Source of the DNA: a virus
Strand: one strand, 5' to 3'
Length of the DNA: 25,873 nucleotides
IMG/VR virus record: IMGVR_UViG_3300025570_000099
Location: 1-25,873 of that record
Shown: in pieces, positions 2,490 through 11,317 of the stretch
Numbering within the stretch: position 1 is the first letter of the stretch
How the letters are laid out: every line of letters begins with the position of its first letter
Made by a program: the position numbers and the translations under genes
The notes under the pieces: generated by a model
What the model saw: the letters and a program-made list of their open reading frames with translations, nothing else
What the model was told of the DNA's origin: nothing
Databases searched by the model: none

Positions 2490-4094
2490 ATGGCCGCTTC
2501 GCAACCCTATGGTGTTTCATGTAAAGGTGGGTTAAATACTAACCTAAACCAACTTGAAATGCTTGGACAGCCGGGATTAGCTACAAAGCTTGTAAACTTT
2601 GAAGTTGATCCAGACGGAGGCTATCGCCGCATAAACGGCTATACAGCCTTTGGTGATACTCGTCCTAATGGCTCTAATGAAATACTAGGGCTTGCAGTAT
2701 ATGCTGATGGCCTTATAGCTTGTTCGGGCGATGGTATTTTCTTTAGCCCTGACGGTGAAAATGCTTGGCTACAAATCAATAGAGCATCTGTACACTCAAG
2801 TGGGGACAACTACTCAACATTTATTGGGAGAGGTTTAGCCGCACGGACAAGTCAAGGACAGTCAAGTTTTGCAGTCTACGAAGGCAACACAGACTATGGT
2901 CAAATTATTATTTGTGATGGTGTCAACAAGCCTTTTTACTTTCACATGGAAGGCTCTGGAGCTTTAACTACTCGCACATTCTTTGCAGAAGAAATAACAG
3001 TAAGCGGCACAACAGCCCCAACAGTATGTGCAGTGCACGATCATCACTTAGTAGTTGCGGGAGCAGACGCGGCTAAAGATACTATATATTATAGCCACAA
3101 CTTTGAGCCTGAAAACTTTTCAGGTTCAGGATCGGGAAGCATTAAGCTGTCTGATCAAGTTATAGGACTTAAAAGCTTTCGTGGCGACTTAATTATTTTC
3201 TGCCGTAATAGTTTACACAAGCTTATAAACATTAATGATTCTAGTAACATTGCTATTGTACCTGTTACACAGAACGTAGGTTGCTTGAGTTCACATAGCA
3301 TTCAAGAAATTGGTGGTGACTTAGTGTTCCTTAGCCCAGACGGTATACGTTCTGTTGCGGGTACATCAAGAATTGGTGACGTTGAATTAGGATCAGTTAG
3401 TCGTCAAATACAATCTATTATTTCTACTGTTGCTCACGGCATAAATTCTTTTACTATTACAAGCGCAGTCCTAAGAAGCAAGTCGCAGTACAGATTATTT
3501 TATAATACAGACGGCGGGTCTACTGCATCTGCTAAAGGAATTATTGGTACACTAACAGCTAACGGCTTTGAATGGTCTGAAACTCTTGGAATACAAGCTA
3601 CTGGCTTTGCTTCTGGCTTTGAAGCTACAGGTGTTGAAAAACTCTATCACGGAGACAGCCAAGGTTATATTTATAATCATAATACTGGCAATAGTTTTTT
3701 AACAGGCGGCACGGCTTTAGATATTGACGCTCAGTATCTTACTCCGCACTATGACTTTGGAGATGTAGGCACTAGAAAAACTTTACATTATGTTAAGATT
3801 TCTGTAACTCCAGAAGGCGAAGCGTCACCTACATTAAAAATTAGATATGACTACGAAGATACAACAATACCACAGCCGCCAGAGTATGTTTTAGACAACA
3901 TACCGACACCTTCTCTTTTTGGAGATGCAGTATTTGGAACGGCTGTATTTGGCGCAAGCACTGACCCAATGCTTCGTCAAGCTGTTCAAGGAAGTGGAAG
4001 TGTTTGCAATTTACGAATACGCAGCACAGATCAAAAGCCGCCTTATGCAATTAACGGCATCTACATAAATTACGTCCCATCAGGTAGGAGATAA
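2490..4094 (+). CDS. Tail nozzle / tail-tube stabilisation protein (beta-propeller-like)
   Basis: The 534-residue product fits the nozzle family (T7 gp12 / P22 gp10-like) that forms the distal end of the short tail. Evidence is the N-terminal signature GGLNTNLNQLEML, then NFEVDPDGGYRRINGYTAFG around residues 36-55, a pattern typical of these proteins, and a mostly beta-strand composition with repeated blade-like units (e.g. DLIIFCRNSLHKLI near 237 and DLVFLSPDGIRSVAG near 277). The C-terminal 100 residues again look beta-rich (YVKISVTPEGEASPTLKIRY). It starts one base after the adaptor gene stop and is followed after 5 bases by the fibre gene, whose product would attach near the nozzle or adaptor. 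Confidence 0.8.
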   Translation: MAASQPYGVSCKGGLNTNLNQLEMLGQPGLATKLVNFEVDPDGGYRRINGYTAFGDTRPNGSNEILGLAVYADGLIACSGDGIFFSPDGENAWLQINRASVHSSGDNYSTFIGRGLAARTSQGQSSFAVYEGNTDYGQIIICDGVNKPFYFHMEGSGALTTRTFFAEEITVSGTTAPTVCAVHDHHLVVAGADAAKDTIYYSHNFEPENFSGSGSGSIKLSDQVIGLKSFRGDLIIFCRNSLHKLININDSSNIAIVPVTQNVGCLSSHSIQEIGGDLVFLSPDGIRSVAGTSRIGDVELGSVSRQIQSIISTVAHGINSFTITSAVLRSKSQYRLFYNTDGGSTASAKGIIGTLTANGFEWSETLGIQATGFASGFEATGVEKLYHGDSQGYIYNHNTGNSFLTGGTALDIDAQYLTPHYDFGDVGTRKTLHYVKISVTPEGEASPTLKIRYDYEDTTIPQPPEYVLDNIPTPSLFGDAVFGTAVFGASTDPMLRQAVQGSGSVCNLRIRSTDQKPPYAINGIYINYVPSGRR

Positions 4095-4099
4095 CCCAA

Positions 4100-7000
4100 A
4101 TGGCAGGAACAAGTTACACTAGACAAAGTACGCTTACCGATGGCGATACGATTACAGCTTCACTTTTTAACGCAGAATACAATCAATTAGTTACTGCGTT
4201 TTCGTATGCGGCTTCTGGCACTACAGGACACCAACACGATGGAGGCTCAGGAGAGGGCGGCAACATTGAAATCATTGGAGATCAAGACTTTTTAAACAAG
4301 ATAGTTGTTGATAGTTCTAACAACCGTTGGAGCGTCTTTGTAGAAGTGGGCGGTAGCGCCGTTGAGCAAGTACGCATTGAAGATGGTGTTGTGTATCCAG
4401 TAACCGACAGCGATGTAGATTTGGGTACAAATGCTTTACGTTTTAAAGACGCTTACATTGATAGTCTTACAGCTACAGGAAACCTCACAGTTGGTGGAAA
4501 TATAACTGTAACAGGTAACGTAGATGTTGACGGCATTGTAGAGTTTGACGGTTTATCTGGCACAGGATCAGTTACAGTCACAGACATTTTAGATCAAGAT
4601 GATATGTCAGGCGACAGTGCGACAGCCCTTGCAACTCAACAGAGCATTAAAGCCTATGTAGACGCACAGCAAGATACTGTTGATACATTCGCAGAGATTT
4701 TAGCATTGAGTAACACATCTGGCGGTACAGATGTAGAGTTGACCACAACCGACAAGGTTCAGTTCCGCGATGCCGCAATTTACATTAACTCTAGTGCTGA
4801 CGGACAACTAGATATTGTTGCAGACACTGAGATTCAAATAGCCGCAACTACTATAGACATTAATGGTGCTGTAGCACTTAATGGTGCAGTTACTGGAGCT
4901 ACCAACATTACATTGAGCGGTGAGCTTGATGCGGCTACAGGCGACTTCTCAGGCGCAGTAGATATTGATGGCGCTTTAGACGTAGCAGGAACTACGAACC
5001 TTGATGTAGTAGATATAGATGGCGCAGTAGATATGGCTACAACTTTAGCTGTTGCAGGCAACGTAGATTTCAATGGCGACCTAGATGTAGATGGTACTAC
5101 AAACCTAGATGTTGTAGATATAGACGGTGCTGTGGACATGGCCTCTACACTGACTGTTGCAAGTAATATTGTAGTTGGCGGCACAGTTGATGGCCGTGAT
5201 GTAGCTACAGATGGTACTAAGCTAGATGGTATTGAAGCCAGTGCAACTGCTGACCAAACTGATGCAGAGATTCGTACAGCGGTAGAAGCCGCTACAGATT
5301 CTAATGTCTTTACAGATGCAGACCATACAAAGCTAAATGCTATTGAGGCTTCAGCAGACGTAACGGACACAGCTAATGTTACTAGCGCGGGTGCATTAAT
5401 GGACAGTGAGGTAACTAACCTTGCTCAAGTTAAGGCGTTTGATTCATCGGACTATGCTACAGCGGCACAAGGTACTACTGCTGATGCGGCACTGCCTAAA
5501 TCTGGTGGAGCAATGACAGGTGCGATAACCACCAACAGCACTTTTGATGGTCGTGATGTTGCTACTGATGGCACTAAGCTAGACGGTATAGAAGCTAGTG
5601 CAGACGTAACGGACACAGCTAACGTCACAGCCGCAGGAGCTTTGATGGATTCAGAGCTTACTGCTATTGCAAGCGTTAAGGCTTTGAACCAAGGCGTTGC
5701 TACTACTGATAGCCCTCAGTTTGTAGGTATTACTTCTACTGCTAATGTAATTGTAGGTGGAAACCTCACAGTAAACGGCACTACAACAACTCTAAACACT
5801 GCAACACTTGATGTAGAAGACAAGAACATCACTATAAATTATGGTGCAGGAGATACTACAGGCTCTGCAAACGGAGCAGGTATTACAATTCAAGATGCTG
5901 TAGATGCTTCTACAGACGCTACAATCCTTTGGGACACAACTAATGATGAGTTTGATTTTTCTCATCCTATTAATGTAGCAGGTAAAGTTACAAGCACAGG
6001 CACTTCAGTATTTGCAAGCTTAGACATCTCTGGAGACATAGACGTAGACGGCACAACTAACCTTGATGTCGTGGACATTGATGGTGCTGTGGATATGGCT
6101 TCTACACTAGCAGTAGCAGGAGTTGTTACAGCCAACGCAGGTGTAGTGGTAGATAACTTCACGCTTGATGGGACTACTCTGGCTTTAAGTTCTGGTGATA
6201 TGCTTGTTGATGTAGCGGGCAATATAACTCTTGATGCAGATGATGCAGGTGAAATAAGACTTAAAGACGGTGGAACACAATACGGTGCTTTGAAAATAGA
6301 CAGTAGTCGTTTCAAAATTCAATCTATAATTTCAGACGCAGACATGCTGTTTGCAGTAAACGATGGTGGTAGTGAAGTAACAGCCCTCTCCTTTGATGCG
6401 TCAGAGGCAGGAGCGGCCACGTTTAATTCTACAATAGCGGCAACAGGCATAACTGTCTCAGGCAACCTTGATGTAGACGGCGGCACAATCAAGCTGGATG
6501 GTAACTATCCTAACGGTGTTAATAACGTAGCTCTAGGTAACGCTGCTTTAGATACTGCAAGCGGGGTAAATGGCTATTCTGTGGCTGTTGGTACTAACGC
6601 CTTAACCGCCATGACAAGTGGTGGTTCAAACGTAGGAGTTGGGTACGCTTCTGGTGCGGCAATTACAACTGGCGGTAACAACGTAGCTGTCGGTACAGAA
6701 GCCTTGGATGCCACTACAACAGGCAGTAGCAATGTTGCGGTAGGTTCAGCAGCATTGGGTGCAAACACTACAGCATCAAACAACACAGCAGTTGGTTATT
6801 CAGCTTTACTTTCAAACACCACAGGAGACGCTAACACAGCTCTTGGTAGCGGTACTTTATATGCCTGTACAACTGCTTCTGCAAATACTGCTGTAGGTAA
6901 GGACGCTGGCGCTAACATAACTACTGGAGGGAACAACACAGCCGTTGGTAGAAGTGCTTTACTCGCAAACACTACAGGCAGAGACAATACCGCTTTAGGC

Positions 7001-9199
7001 TTTAGTGCAGGAGTGACTAACACTACGGGGCTTGAGAATACCGCCATTGGTATGTACGCCTTGAGATTTAACACCACAGGACAAACAAACACTGCTGTGG
7101 GCTTACAGGCACTTCACCGAAATACAACGGCTAGTAACAATACGGCTGTCGGTAGATATGCTCTGGAGGCAAACACCACAGGCACACGTAACACCGCAGT
7201 GGGCGCATTAGCAGGGGATGCCAACACAGAAGGCAATTACAACTCAGCCTTTGGTTATAATTCATTAGGGGCAAATACTACAGGCACACATAACACTGCT
7301 CTTGGTGACTTTTCTCAGGCTGCTAACACTACAGGAACTAAGAATGTTTCTGTGGGGCAAGGGTCATTTATTACCAACACTACAGGCTCTAATAATGTAG
7401 TTGTGGGTACAGAAGCTATGACTGCTAACACTACAGCAGATAACAACACAGCAGTTGGTTTTCAAGCTTTATATGCTAACACCACAGGCAGTGAAAATAA
7501 CGCATTGGGCTATGGTGCTTTACAAGCCAACACAACTGCTCAGAATAATAATGCTTTTGGAACTTTAGCTTTAGGGGCAAACACCACAGGTGCGAGTAAT
7601 ACTGCTATGGGTGGTAATACTTTAGACGCTAATACCACAGGAAGTAACAACACAGCAGTGGGTTACGTTGCTTTAGGAGCAAACACCACAGGCGCTCAAA
7701 TGACAGCCGTGGGTACGTTAGCTTTAGCCGCTAGTACGACAGCCACTGGTTGTATAGCAGTAGGGTTTAGGTCATTAAACGACAACACCACTGGCGATTG
7801 GAATGTTGGTCTTGGATATGATGCTTTAGGAGTTAATACCACAGGCGCTAACAACACAGCTGTCGGTACGTTTGCGCTAGACGCTAATACCACCGCATCT
7901 AACAATACAGCAGTGGGTTATGCTTCTTTAGGCACAAACACCACAGGTGCTAGTAATACAGCAGTTGGTAGAGAATCTTTATTTAATAACACTACAGGCG
8001 CAAGTAACGCCGCACTGGGTCTTAATGCTTTATACGCAAACACCACAGGCACAGAGAATGTTGCCGTTGGTAAAGGCGCTTTACAATCAAATACCACAGG
8101 TAGTTACAATCACGCCTTTGGAGTAAATGCAGGTTACGCAATAACAACTGGTTCGACTAACATAGCTATAGGAAACGCGGCTTTAAGTACCGCTACAACC
8201 GCAAGCGGTAACACAGCAGTTGGACACAGCGCATTAGCCGCAAACACTTCAGGTTCTTCTAACGTAGGAGTGGGTGCAAATGTATTAGATGCTAATACCA
8301 CAGGCGCTAACAACACAGCCGTTGGTAAAGATGCTTTAACCGATAACACCACAGGCACATATAACACCGCAGTGGGTTCATTATCTTTGGAGAATACAAC
8401 CACTGGTATTTCAAATACTGCCGTAGGTGGGCAAGCATTACAAGGTAATACCTCAGGCGACTACAACACGGCTATGGGAGTAAATGCACTTGATAAAAAC
8501 ACTACAGCAGACGGAAATACAGGTATAGCCGCAGGAGCTTTAGCCGCAAATACAACAGGCGCAAGCAACACAGCAGTCGGTCAGAATGCTTTAACCGCAA
8601 ACACCACAGGTACACAGAATACAGCAGTGGGTCAAAGTGCAGGCAATACTATTACTACAGGTAACTATAATTTATGTGTTGGATATAACACTGATACTGG
8701 TTCTATTGATTCACAGAGACGCTTTGTTATTGGACAAGATTTTAACGGAACTACAAATAATGCAGTACACATAGGTGCTTCTGGTGGTCATGTTAGAAAC
8801 GACTTTTTAAGCGATGCCACTTGGGATCAAGTTTCAGATGTGCGTAAGAAAACAAATATTGAAGACAACAGTATGGGCTTAGAGTTTATCAATGGTCTGC
8901 GAACAGTAATCTTTAATTTTAAAGCACCTTCAGAGTATCCCGAAGAGTGGCAAGAATACAATGCCAGTCAGACTGAGCCTGTAGTTAAGGACAAAAAAAT
9001 AGGTCTTATAGCTCAAGAAGTTAAAGCAGTTATTGATGAATTAGGTATTGAACATTATGACGGTACTTGGGGAGAGAAACCAAACGGACAGCAAGAGATT
9101 GGCCCTTCTGATTATATTTTTCCGCTTATCAAAGCTATACAAGAACTTTCAACTCAACTAGACGCAGCATTAGCTCGCATTGAAACCTTAGAAGGATAA
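4100..9199 (+). CDS. Giant tail fibre with 17-residue repeats and S74-type C-terminal chaperone
   Basis: This 1699-residue protein is the likely receptor-binding fibre. The start follows AGGAGA. Residues 1-60 look like the tail-attachment end, with a His pair in GTTGHQHDGG (H44, H46). Residues about 100-800 are beta-rich, low-complexity fibre shaft (DVDLGTNALRFKDAYI at 105-120, NLTVGGNITVTGNVDVDG) with repeated blocks annotated separately. Residues 809-1523 are about 42 tandem 17-residue units of the type NTAVGxxALxANTTGxx, similar to beta-roll repeats of YadA-like adhesins. Residues 1579-1699 match the peptidase S74 intramolecular chaperone: SDVRKKTNI, then IGLIAQEV, a Tyr-Ile-Phe-Pro-Leu-Ile-Lys-Ala segment and a coiled-coil end. 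The product should be a trimer that cuts off its own chaperone. It is long even for phage fibres. Confidence 0.88.
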   Translation: MAGTSYTRQSTLTDGDTITASLFNAEYNQLVTAFSYAASGTTGHQHDGGSGEGGNIEIIGDQDFLNKIVVDSSNNRWSVFVEVGGSAVEQVRIEDGVVYPVTDSDVDLGTNALRFKDAYIDSLTATGNLTVGGNITVTGNVDVDGIVEFDGLSGTGSVTVTDILDQDDMSGDSATALATQQSIKAYVDAQQDTVDTFAEILALSNTSGGTDVELTTTDKVQFRDAAIYINSSADGQLDIVADTEIQIAATTIDINGAVALNGAVTGATNITLSGELDAATGDFSGAVDIDGALDVAGTTNLDVVDIDGAVDMATTLAVAGNVDFNGDLDVDGTTNLDVVDIDGAVDMASTLTVASNIVVGGTVDGRDVATDGTKLDGIEASATADQTDAEIRTAVEAATDSNVFTDADHTKLNAIEASADVTDTANVTSAGALMDSEVTNLAQVKAFDSSDYATAAQGTTADAALPKSGGAMTGAITTNSTFDGRDVATDGTKLDGIEASADVTDTANVTAAGALMDSELTAIASVKALNQGVATTDSPQFVGITSTANVIVGGNLTVNGTTTTLNTATLDVEDKNITINYGAGDTTGSANGAGITIQDAVDASTDATILWDTTNDEFDFSHPINVAGKVTSTGTSVFASLDISGDIDVDGTTNLDVVDIDGAVDMASTLAVAGVVTANAGVVVDNFTLDGTTLALSSGDMLVDVAGNITLDADDAGEIRLKDGGTQYGALKIDSSRFKIQSIISDADMLFAVNDGGSEVTALSFDASEAGAATFNSTIAATGITVSGNLDVDGGTIKLDGNYPNGVNNVALGNAALDTASGVNGYSVAVGTNALTAMTSGGSNVGVGYASGAAITTGGNNVAVGTEALDATTTGSSNVAVGSAALGANTTASNNTAVGYSALLSNTTGDANTALGSGTLYACTTASANTAVGKDAGANITTGGNNTAVGRSALLANTTGRDNTALGFSAGVTNTTGLENTAIGMYALRFNTTGQTNTAVGLQALHRNTTASNNTAVGRYALEANTTGTRNTAVGALAGDANTEGNYNSAFGYNSLGANTTGTHNTALGDFSQAANTTGTKNVSVGQGSFITNTTGSNNVVVGTEAMTANTTADNNTAVGFQALYANTTGSENNALGYGALQANTTAQNNNAFGTLALGANTTGASNTAMGGNTLDANTTGSNNTAVGYVALGANTTGAQMTAVGTLALAASTTATGCIAVGFRSLNDNTTGDWNVGLGYDALGVNTTGANNTAVGTFALDANTTASNNTAVGYASLGTNTTGASNTAVGRESLFNNTTGASNAALGLNALYANTTGTENVAVGKGALQSNTTGSYNHAFGVNAGYAITTGSTNIAIGNAALSTATTASGNTAVGHSALAANTSGSSNVGVGANVLDANTTGANNTAVGKDALTDNTTGTYNTAVGSLSLENTTTGISNTAVGGQALQGNTSGDYNTAMGVNALDKNTTADGNTGIAAGALAANTTGASNTAVGQNALTANTTGTQNTAVGQSAGNTITTGNYNLCVGYNTDTGSIDSQRRFVIGQDFNGTTNNAVHIGASGGHVRNDFLSDATWDQVSDVRKKTNIEDNSMGLEFINGLRTVIFNFKAPSEYPEEWQEYNASQTEPVVKDKKIGLIAQEVKAVIDELGIEHYDGTWGEKPNGQQEIGPSDYIFPLIKAIQELSTQLDAALARIETLEG
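4988..6100 (+). repeat. Three copies of an identical 17-residue shaft block (GTTNLDVVDIDGAVDMA)
   Basis: Copies lie at 4988-5038, 5093-5143 and 6050-6100, all in the fibre frame. The 17 residues are identical in all three, yet 10-11 of 17 codons differ between any pair, all synonymously. The flanks (TLAVAG, TLTVAS) are also similar. These are shaft repeats, not mobile elements. Confidence 0.9.
5189..5602 (+). repeat. Two copies of an identical 19-residue shaft block (DGRDVATDGTKLDGIEASA)
   Basis: Copies lie at 5189-5245 and 5546-5602. The 19 residues are identical while 7 codons differ synonymously. A partial third version, HTKLNAIEASADVTDTANV, starts near 5327, and ADVTDTANV recurs after the second full copy. 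Confidence 0.88.
6524..8668 (+). repeat. About 42 tandem 51-bp units coding 17-residue fibre repeats
   Basis: Residues 809-1523 of the fibre divide into a first 18-residue unit and 41 units of exactly 17 residues, with consensus N-T-A-V-G-x-x-A-L-x-A-N-T-T-G-x-x. The register never slips after the first unit. A degenerate unit (NLCVGYNTDTG) follows. Some units change class, e.g. TTAS or TTAD instead of TTG, or AGxxITTGG in place of ALxANTTG. Such periodicity fits a parallel beta-roll or solenoid in a trimer. Confidence 0.93.
8834..9199 (+). other. Predicted self-cleaved S74 chaperone domain of the fibre
   Basis: The 121 residues from Ser1579 to the end have the S74 pattern. Ser1579 starts the SDVRKK motif, and Lys1584 is five residues later, the same spacing as the Ser-Lys dyad known from endosialidase chaperones. 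Cleavage would occur just before Ser1579. GLIAQEV (residues about 1635) and the final coiled coil are the other family marks. Confidence 0.82.
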
Positions 9200-10119: not shown

Positions 10120-10295
10120 TGGCTGTAGAAGAATCAGTAAAAGAAACGGTAGACGTAGTAGCTGCTTCAACAGGCATACTTTCTTTAGTTGCTTGGTTAC
10201 CGCCTACAGCCTCATTGTTTACTATTATATGGTTAGGTATAAGGATATACGAATCAGATACTGTTCAAAAACTTGTAAATAAAAATAAAGAATGA
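10119..10295 (+). CDS. 58-residue membrane protein, class II holin candidate
   Basis: The frame ATG 10119 to TGA 10293-10295 encodes 58 residues: MAVEESVKETVDVVAAS, a hydrophobic stretch (residues about 18-40, TGILSLVAWLPPTASLFTII) and IRIYESDTVQKLVNKNKE. The Trp-Leu-Pro-Pro turn could split the stretch into two short helices. The end 'IRIYESDTVQK' resembles small holins of marine T7-like phages as I remember them. The gene overlaps both neighbours, TAATG upstream and ATGA downstream, which supports it being real. Function is inferred from size, charge pattern and this resemblance. Confidence 0.62.
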   Translation: MAVEESVKETVDVVAASTGILSLVAWLPPTASLFTIIWLGIRIYESDTVQKLVNKNKE

Positions 10296-11317
10296 AATTT
10301 TATATACTAACATCTAATAACTATAAAGGACTTATGCGTCATTTTGATCCTGAATATAGTCACATACAAAAAGAAGATGCAGTTGTAATTATTAATAGTT
10401 TAGACAGTGCATACATTGAACAAGCTAAAAACTTTTGTATTGTAAAAGATATTAAATATTATATCACAGAAAGCAACGGAAGTCCAGCAAAAGGTAAAAA
10501 TAGTTTGTTAGACATTTTTTTAGAATCTAATAATGACTATTGTGTCATGATAGACGGCGATGATTTTTTAACTCCGCATGGTGTTTGGATGTATAAGCAC
10601 TTAGCGGGATTAGAAACTCCCCCGGACGCAGTATGTTTAATTAATCAAACGTCTTTACGTTATCAAAATGATGTGTTATACTCCGTAAATCCTTTTACTG
10701 TAGACTATGAAGATCTTTTAAGCTCTGATTACTATACAATGTTTAAACATGATCTTGGGTTGAGCCACGAAAAATCTATGTACTTTCATAATCTTCATAA
10801 CAAATACTATGCAGAACAGCAAAAGTACAGCGAAGGCTCTGAAGTACATTGTCGTGTTACATGGATGAGCAAAAAGGCTGCTCAGTTTAAATTTGATGAG
10901 GATTTAATTGTAGGCGAAGACACGTTGCAAATGTTGCGTTTAAAGCACGAAGCTTTAGAAGGACGTTTAAATTTATATACTACAAACGAAAACCCTGCAA
11001 CATATGTATACGATGAAAGAGAACCCGGAACTGTAATGCTAGAGTCTAGTTTTGGGACTGATTATGAATGGATGGATGTGTATCTCAATGCTCTTGAAGA
11101 AATGAAAGAAAACAATCAACTGCATTTGAATACATGCCTTCCAGAGCTAAAAATAGAATATCCTCAAGATTATGTTTATAACGATCTTGAATTAACAGAG
11201 CCTCACGTACATGAACTACAGGAAGCTCATCTAGTGTTTCCACAAAACGCTACAGATAACTCAATACAGAAGTGTTATGAGTTTTTAAAATCTTTAGACA
11301 ACAAAAAAGCTGCATAG
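10292..11317 (+). CDS. Glycosyltransferase, GT-A fold (family 2-like)
   Basis: This 341-residue protein probably moves a sugar from a nucleotide-sugar to an unknown acceptor. The start of the fold is visible as MKFYILTSNN and VVIINSLDSAYIEQAKNFC (residues 31-49). SNGSPAKGKNSLLDIFLES (61-79) precedes the metal-binding DxD, D88-G-D90 in VMIDGDDFLTP. VGED at 207-210 fits the acidic catalytic-base motif of GT2 enzymes. The last 90 residues are less typical. The ATG overlaps the previous stop (ATGA) and no ribosome site precedes it, so expression depends on the upstream small gene. The region looks more AT-rich than the flanking genes, suggesting an acquired gene. Targets could be virion proteins or host surface glycans; nothing in the sequence decides. 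Confidence 0.72.
   Translation: MKFYILTSNNYKGLMRHFDPEYSHIQKEDAVVIINSLDSAYIEQAKNFCIVKDIKYYITESNGSPAKGKNSLLDIFLESNNDYCVMIDGDDFLTPHGVWMYKHLAGLETPPDAVCLINQTSLRYQNDVLYSVNPFTVDYEDLLSSDYYTMFKHDLGLSHEKSMYFHNLHNKYYAEQQKYSEGSEVHCRVTWMSKKAAQFKFDEDLIVGEDTLQMLRLKHEALEGRLNLYTTNENPATYVYDEREPGTVMLESSFGTDYEWMDVYLNALEEMKENNQLHLNTCLPELKIEYPQDYVYNDLELTEPHVHELQEAHLVFPQNATDNSIQKCYEFLKSLDNKKAA

Follow-up and report, generated by a model that had tools for sequence, protein, structure and literature searches.

The fibre gene and its genomic setting

The window analysed here, that is, the whole 25,873-nucleotide stretch of the IMG/VR record IMGVR_UViG_3300025570_000099, consists of structural genes of a marine podophage arranged in an order like that of HMO-2011. 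The genes up to and including the fibre (coat protein, tail protein, 'amidase', fibre) follow one another as in that phage, and the N-terminus of the fibre gene gp43 of HMO-2011 is related to that of the window (42.6% identity, residues 1-190 of the fibre); by this combination of syntenic structural genes and a related fibre N-terminus, the window is probably of the HMO-2011 type. The two fibres differ in that the gp43 match ends ahead of the repeated block described below. A 49.8-kb contig nearly identical to the window (L362) has genes for a family-A DNA polymerase, endonuclease I, a Cas4-domain exonuclease and a primase/helicase. Ten of its ORFs were scanned (PHROGs on all ten, Pfam on nine), and none was recognised as a strand-annealing or Rad52-like recombinase.

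The long ORF that carries the blocks has a Peptidase_S74 domain near its C-terminus, as is characteristic of S74-type tail fibres and spikes. The features of this gene are as follows.

4100-9199, plus strand: tail-fibre gene carrying the blocks, an ORF of 1699 aa; phrog_4636 (tail spike), phrog_24456 and phrog_892 (tail fiber); Peptidase_S74 near the C-terminus
8834-9046, plus strand: Peptidase_S74 (chaperone of endosialidase), residues 1579-1649; PF13884, 4.3e-10, 40.2 bits against a cut-off of 22
4988-5038, 5093-5143 and 6050-6100, plus strand: the 17-mer GTTNLDVVDIDGAVDMA, in frame within one ORF (4100-9199)
4950-5054, plus strand: joint module copy 1, a 105-nt unit with the 17-mer at 4988-5038; same 180-nt junction in L084, L085, L086 and L087
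5055-5159, plus strand: joint module copy 2, a 105-nt unit directly tandem to copy 1, with the 17-mer at 5093-5143; a two-parent mosaic
6012-6116, plus strand: joint module copy 3, a 105-nt unit with the 17-mer at 6050-6100; its 30-nt core is exact in 83 IMG/VR stretches
5189-5245, plus strand: the 19-mer DGRDVATDGTKLDGIEASA, copy 1, a second recurring fibre module, less promiscuous
5546-5602, plus strand: the 19-mer DGRDVATDGTKLDGIEASA, copy 2

Several other features were noticed in and around this gene. The ORF directly ahead of it (2490-4094; compare gp44 of HMO-2011) matches phrog_5107, 'amidase', a label that looks doubtful because the same ORF also matches structural PHROGs. An ORF of 341 residues between structural genes (10292-11317) has no Pfam or PHROG match, and its start, by eye only, resembles a GT-A type glycosyltransferase. 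Within the fibre gene, a repeat of 17 residues (51 nt) that follows the pattern NTAVGxxALxANTTG occurs at least 30 times at positions 6662-8661, with 61-82% DNA identity to a reference copy and identical tracts of up to 27 nt; these repeats have what we take to be a YadA-head-like look, and they showed no Pfam match in the scan of the fibre. A direct repeat of 113 nt with 71% identity (5327-5439 and 5573-5685) belongs to a module that also resembles the solved fibre of cyanophage P-SCSP1u (8i4m), the match lying in its EIRT...ADVTD stretch.

Identical peptides with different codons

The three copies of the 17-mer are, as originally noticed, identical in every residue, and the pairs of copies differ in 10, 10 and 11 codons, all of the differences being synonymous; the nucleotide differences per pair have the same values (10, 10 and 11). 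Independent choice of codons according to the usage of this gene would yield 9.67 differences (sd 1.92), with a probability of 0.54 for 10 or more and 0.34 for 11 or more; thus the copies are near synonymous saturation rather than super-diverged. The accompanying observation on the 19-residue pair (5189 and 5546) also held, with seven codon differences where 11.65 (sd 2.08) are expected (P(<=7) = 0.024), so that this pair is more alike than codon independence predicts. The unusual feature of the 17-mer is not the size of the codon difference but the lack of any residue change at near-saturated synonymous sites. Full codon saturation of the block, which we also considered, is nearly but not fully true: position-specific codon preferences remain, with a codon homozygosity of 0.493 in the block and 0.426 elsewhere in these fibres (for ATT, 0.79 and 0.52). 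We read this residual preference as residual common descent; DNA-level constraint is an alternative.

Because the other loci had been chosen by block peptide patterns, the measurement of residue conservation was restricted to fibres recruited through their N-terminus (80 loci plus the window, of which 58 are distinct). At least one block is present in 39 of these 58 fibres, for a total of 112 block rows, 53 of which have the exact 17-mer. In the main family (93 of the 112 rows, those of other sequence families being dropped), pN/pS is 0.034 for the ten-residue core and 0.076 for the 17-mer at a pS of about 0.67, the 17-mer value rising to 0.230 when all 112 rows are kept. The flanks have a pN/pS of 0.240 (ten residues upstream) and 0.432 (seven residues downstream), and the N-terminal domain of the same fibres 0.216, although one 17-column stretch of that domain is as low as 0.064. 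Substitutions do occur in relatives, namely, T2V, V7A/I, D15N and M16I/L. The block peptide is therefore under strong, although not absolute, purifying selection, in agreement with the constraint that the original prediction had proposed as one of two explanations; block residues changing at the same rate as residues elsewhere were sought in the relatives and were not seen.

Structure prediction added little to this picture. The AlphaFold model of a 167-residue stretch (18-row alignment A1) has a mean pLDDT of 60.1, falling below 50 at residues 101-167, and in the same model DSSP assigned no strands and the PDB yielded no match at E<=0.001; our supposition is that the chain must trimerise in order to fold. 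The only relative with a solved structure, the P-SCSP1u fibre, gave a good alignment with the next module (EIRT...ADVTD) but not with the block.

The block as a probable joint between fibre modules

The 17-mer is the centre of a module of about 35 residues, roughly LDISGDIDVDGTTNLDVVDIDGAVDMASTLAVAG, that is present in at least 182 distinct fibre ORFs and up to seven times in one fibre (L107). Of the 361 copies, 325 have both flanks available, and these come from 182 of the 210 distinct fibre ORFs. Their upstream flanks fall into 45 classes and their downstream flanks into 63, joined in 158 different combinations; in 87 pairs of upstream classes, both members are combined with two or more of the same downstream classes. 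When flanks that are themselves tandem blocks are removed, 160 sampled contexts still comprise 40 upstream and 52 downstream classes in 120 combinations, with 45 pairs of upstream classes having at least two downstream classes in common. The control motif GHQHD joins a single upstream class to a single downstream class in 19 contexts, and the DGRDV...KLD module is intermediate in promiscuity (33 x 15 classes, 119 contexts); the other controls (EDKNI, S74 and WDxxxDEF) had too few contexts to use. All four combinations of two upstream and two downstream classes were found around the block. The contexts also diverge at the DNA level: among the 69 distinct contexts of the 30-nt core of copy 3, pairwise identity at a distance of 45-60 nt is down to 0.41 on the upstream side and 0.35 on the downstream side, and by 90 nt it is about 0.3. 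The translated flanks are likewise very different from one another.

The block is also where homology between fibres tends to end. The ends were taken from fibre-fibre alignments of at least 90% identity and at least 200 nt, deduplicated; earlier, looser thresholds were dominated by block-centred matches, and the deduplicated set was used alone. Block windows contain 66 of the 318 distinct ends. Positions drawn at random from the same aligned DNA would give 29.4 (sd 4.9), and none of 1000 draws reached the observed 66. This enrichment is modest (1.6-2.6 fold) and is partly a consequence of block conservation.

A further test concerned mosaics, with parents chosen on the flanks alone and the switch placed inside the 108-nt middle. 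For 61 of 334 units, two candidate parents were available, one matching the upstream side only and the other the downstream side only. A single switch in the predicted order explains a median of 0.81 of the informative sites, compared with 0.56 for the reversed order, and the predicted order is better in 57 of the 61 units, tied in four and worse in none. All three window copies are among these mosaics (22 of 30, 33 of 36 and 18 of 24 sites explained, compared with 14, 24 and 12 in the reversed order). Only 7 of the 61 mosaics are explained to at least 95% by one switch, which implies that the parent stand-ins are imperfect or that more than one event took place. Thus, as in the T-even kind of system, a conserved motif is repeated in the fibre gene and separates variable segments, and ancestry switches fall within the motif.

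Possible turnover of block DNA

Where both flanks of a block match between two fibres (>=88%), synonymous divergence in the block exceeds that in the flanks by a factor of 2.24 (bootstrap 1.74-2.87; 55 windows, 42 fibre pairs), compared with 1.15 (1.11-1.19; 5503 windows, 363 pairs) at places away from blocks. Such an excess could also fit diversification of codons, but the within-fibre tests given below argue against that reading. A sibling contig, L136, gives an example: it equals the window throughout the 3.5 kb ahead of the fibre, where differences are absent downstream of about position 566, and within the first 1127 nt of the fibre itself the two differ only in three clusters. Past these 1127 nt the two fibres diverge.

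4993-5020, plus strand: patch in copy 1, eight differences in 28 nt, all synonymous; flanks identical
4384-4393, plus strand: second patch, four differences in 10 nt, synonymous
4588-4604, plus strand: third patch, five differences in 17 nt, one of them non-synonymous

The clustering of these nearly exclusively synonymous differences suggests very short exchanged patches, and such patches may be how the extra synonymous divergence of the block arises. Among copies with neither flank related, 72 of 16253 pairs (0.44%) share identical 30-mers, seven times the 0.064% under codon independence, so that block haplotypes appear to travel between contexts. The mean codon identity of such flank-unrelated pairs (0.490) equals the position-specific expectation (0.493); hence most exchanges, if recent, are not visible.

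Copies within one fibre were compared with copies from different fibres in two sets. The first was drawn only from the loci of the two initial IMG/VR scans, which had yielded 156 loci with 151 block-like copies, 85 of them peptide-identical, before redundancy removal; in the resulting 103 copies from 38 distinct loci, the within-fibre codon difference is 0.507, compared with 0.5155 (sd 0.012) when copies are dealt at random. In the larger set (179 units, 101 loci and 147 pairs, with L239-L277 excluded), copies within a fibre are more alike than permuted ones, with a codon difference of 0.452 compared with 0.504, and identical tracts of at least 20 nt are present in 32% of the within-fibre pairs compared with 11% of the permuted ones. 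Some fibres carry recent internal duplicates of the block.

Distribution of the block

The joint may extend beyond close relatives of the window. Among 30 long block-bearing records, a relative of the window capsid (E<=0.001) was found in 15, with 77-100% identity in 12 and weak matches in three; there was no match in the other 15, although these records are fragmentary and absence is weak evidence. In the 18 records comprising the 15 unmatched and the three weakest, one, from among the unmatched, encodes a T4-like Gp23, and no HK97-type Phage_capsid scored over the cut-off. Searches of cultured phages with the 42-residue joint peptide gave no match at E 0.01 (low-complexity filtering may contribute), and all 164 records obtained from a phage-isolate collection at E 10 have less than 60% identity to the block. 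In bacterial genomes, a degenerate core was found in four stretches (L357, L358, L359 and L360), two of them in a Maricaulis MAG, one in a Sphingobacteriales MAG and one in Winogradskya humida. The 34,378-base Maricaulis contig equals the IMG/VR contig of L266 in length and is therefore probably a phage contig binned with the MAG. One of the four bacterial stretches has the 105-nt tandem pair.

Origin of the repeated block

Taken together, these observations make it likely that the block joins the interchangeable parts of long tail fibres in a large pool of marine phages, none of them cultured, and that its peptide is under constraint while recombination reshuffles it. At the joint, every segment would have to adopt one common fold register, probably a trimeric one, and this would keep the peptide fixed. 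With a joint common to so many fibres, homologous or diverged-homology recombination between co-infecting phages would tend to cross over there, and whole modules would be swapped in frame. Every exchange would import another synonymous version, such that the copies within one fibre would come close to random draws from the pool.

Plain ancient duplication is the rival that survives best; we consider it unlikely nonetheless. In this view, the block was copied within the fibre in the distant past, and the copies have since passed down vertically with their peptide constrained, playing no particular part in recombination. It accounts for a constant peptide at nearly saturated synonymous sites, for the position of copy 2 as a 105-nt tandem right behind copy 1, and for the relatives L084-L087, in all of which copies 1 and 2 are unaltered, as is copy 3 in L084 and L086, and the recent internal duplicates of some fibres show that duplication does occur. 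It does not account for the same block lying between tens of unrelated module classes in all four combinations of two upstream and two downstream classes, for within-fibre pairs of the first set that are no closer than cross-fibre pairs, or for the patchwise difference of copy 1 between near-identical siblings. The old duplication invoked by the original prediction thus stands in part, as some fibres contain internal duplicates, but the copies resemble draws from a pool of many phages, and unrelated modules are joined at them.

The module swapping might also be only apparent, with metagenome contigs misjoined at the shared block: the block-bearing relatives used here are all metagenome contigs, and misjoins do occur in conserved segments. 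The recurrence of junctions makes this very unlikely. Those of the window are exact over 180 nt in four other contigs for copy 1 (L084-L087), five for copy 2 (the same four and L136) and two for copy 3 (L084 and L086), these contigs coming from datasets 3300006029, 3300025508, 3300022178, 3300000101 and 3300007540, which may re-use the same water samples. More generally, 62 of 292 distinct junctions recur in two or more loci, some of these loci being one and the same contig or site. In addition, the stretches of DNA shared at the switches tend to be short, 56 of the 61 being no longer than 34 nt, which is below the k-mers that assemblers use at the end of a run.

The second explanation offered in the original prediction was that the copies keep unlike codons so as to prevent recombination between repeats, here taken to include deletion between repeats within one genome; identical tracts would accordingly be rarer than codon usage predicts. 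The opposite was found. In 300 synonymous shuffles of the window gene, repeated 12-mers averaged 55.5 and repeated 15-mers 9.0, compared with 212 and 52 observed, so that identical tracts are not avoided in this gene; we think that the excess of repeated words comes mainly from the separate NTTG-type repeats at 6662-8661. Although the longest identical tract among the window copies is 11 nt for every pair and the block exceeds its flanks in synonymous divergence, active codon separation is hardly credible, given that the codon differences match independent choice, that copies within a genome are no more different than chance or than those of other genomes, and that the block is itself a recombination joint.

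Under the reading of the block as a reshuffled joint, a stronger version can be put forward tentatively, although we regard it as rather doubtful. The joint would serve the whole community as a site of exchange, with a fixed peptide that lets fibre modules follow one another in any order, and short-patch exchange would turn over its DNA faster than the flanks. The outcome would be a hot spot of synonymous divergence within coding DNA, marking a natural crossover point that unrelated groups of marine phages have in common.

Relation to known systems and implications

The closest parallel is in the T-even phages, where, as Tetart reportedly found in 1998, fibre segments are exchanged at conserved motifs; these are said to be glycine-rich and to lie in the adhesin of cultured coliphages, for which changes of host range were tested. 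In both cases, short conserved motifs are repeated in a fibre or adhesin gene, separate variable segments and serve as homology for exchange. The joint described here differs in being an Asp-rich module of another sequence, carried by uncultured marine phages and known from sequence alone.

Domain shuffling in fibres is documented more broadly: in the sections of PMC10684548 considered here, which concern mosaicism of receptor-binding proteins, tail fibres and spikes belong to the protein classes in which recent domain shuffling is most abundant. That likeness is at the level of domains and HMMs, and these sections name no DNA-level joint, whereas here the joint and its switches are resolved to tens of nucleotides. 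PMC3945230 deals with phage Rad52-like recombinases and relaxed homologous recombination in temperate E. coli phages; it resembles our case in that the mosaics arise by homology-driven exchange tolerant of divergence and retain some homology where the exchanged fragments begin and end, and differs in the phages concerned and in the recombinase, none of the Rad52-like kind having been recognised in the ten ORFs of L362. A term search of PMC9038755, the paper on the HMO-2011 group, returned no word starting with 'tail fib', and a full-text search of a limited literature collection found no paper with the block strings. The mechanism class, swapping of fibre modules at conserved motifs, is known; no description of this particular joint, or of how it behaves at the DNA level, was found in the literature searched.

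The joint provides a sequence handle on how abundant uncultured marine phages rebuild their receptor-binding fibres. With a nearly fixed joint of about 35 residues, fibre modules can be parsed and recombination can be estimated directly from metagenomes. Identical peptide repeats with different codons can be a normal outcome of constraint combined with pool-wide recombination and, accordingly, should not be read as an anti-recombination design unless copies within and between genomes have been compared.
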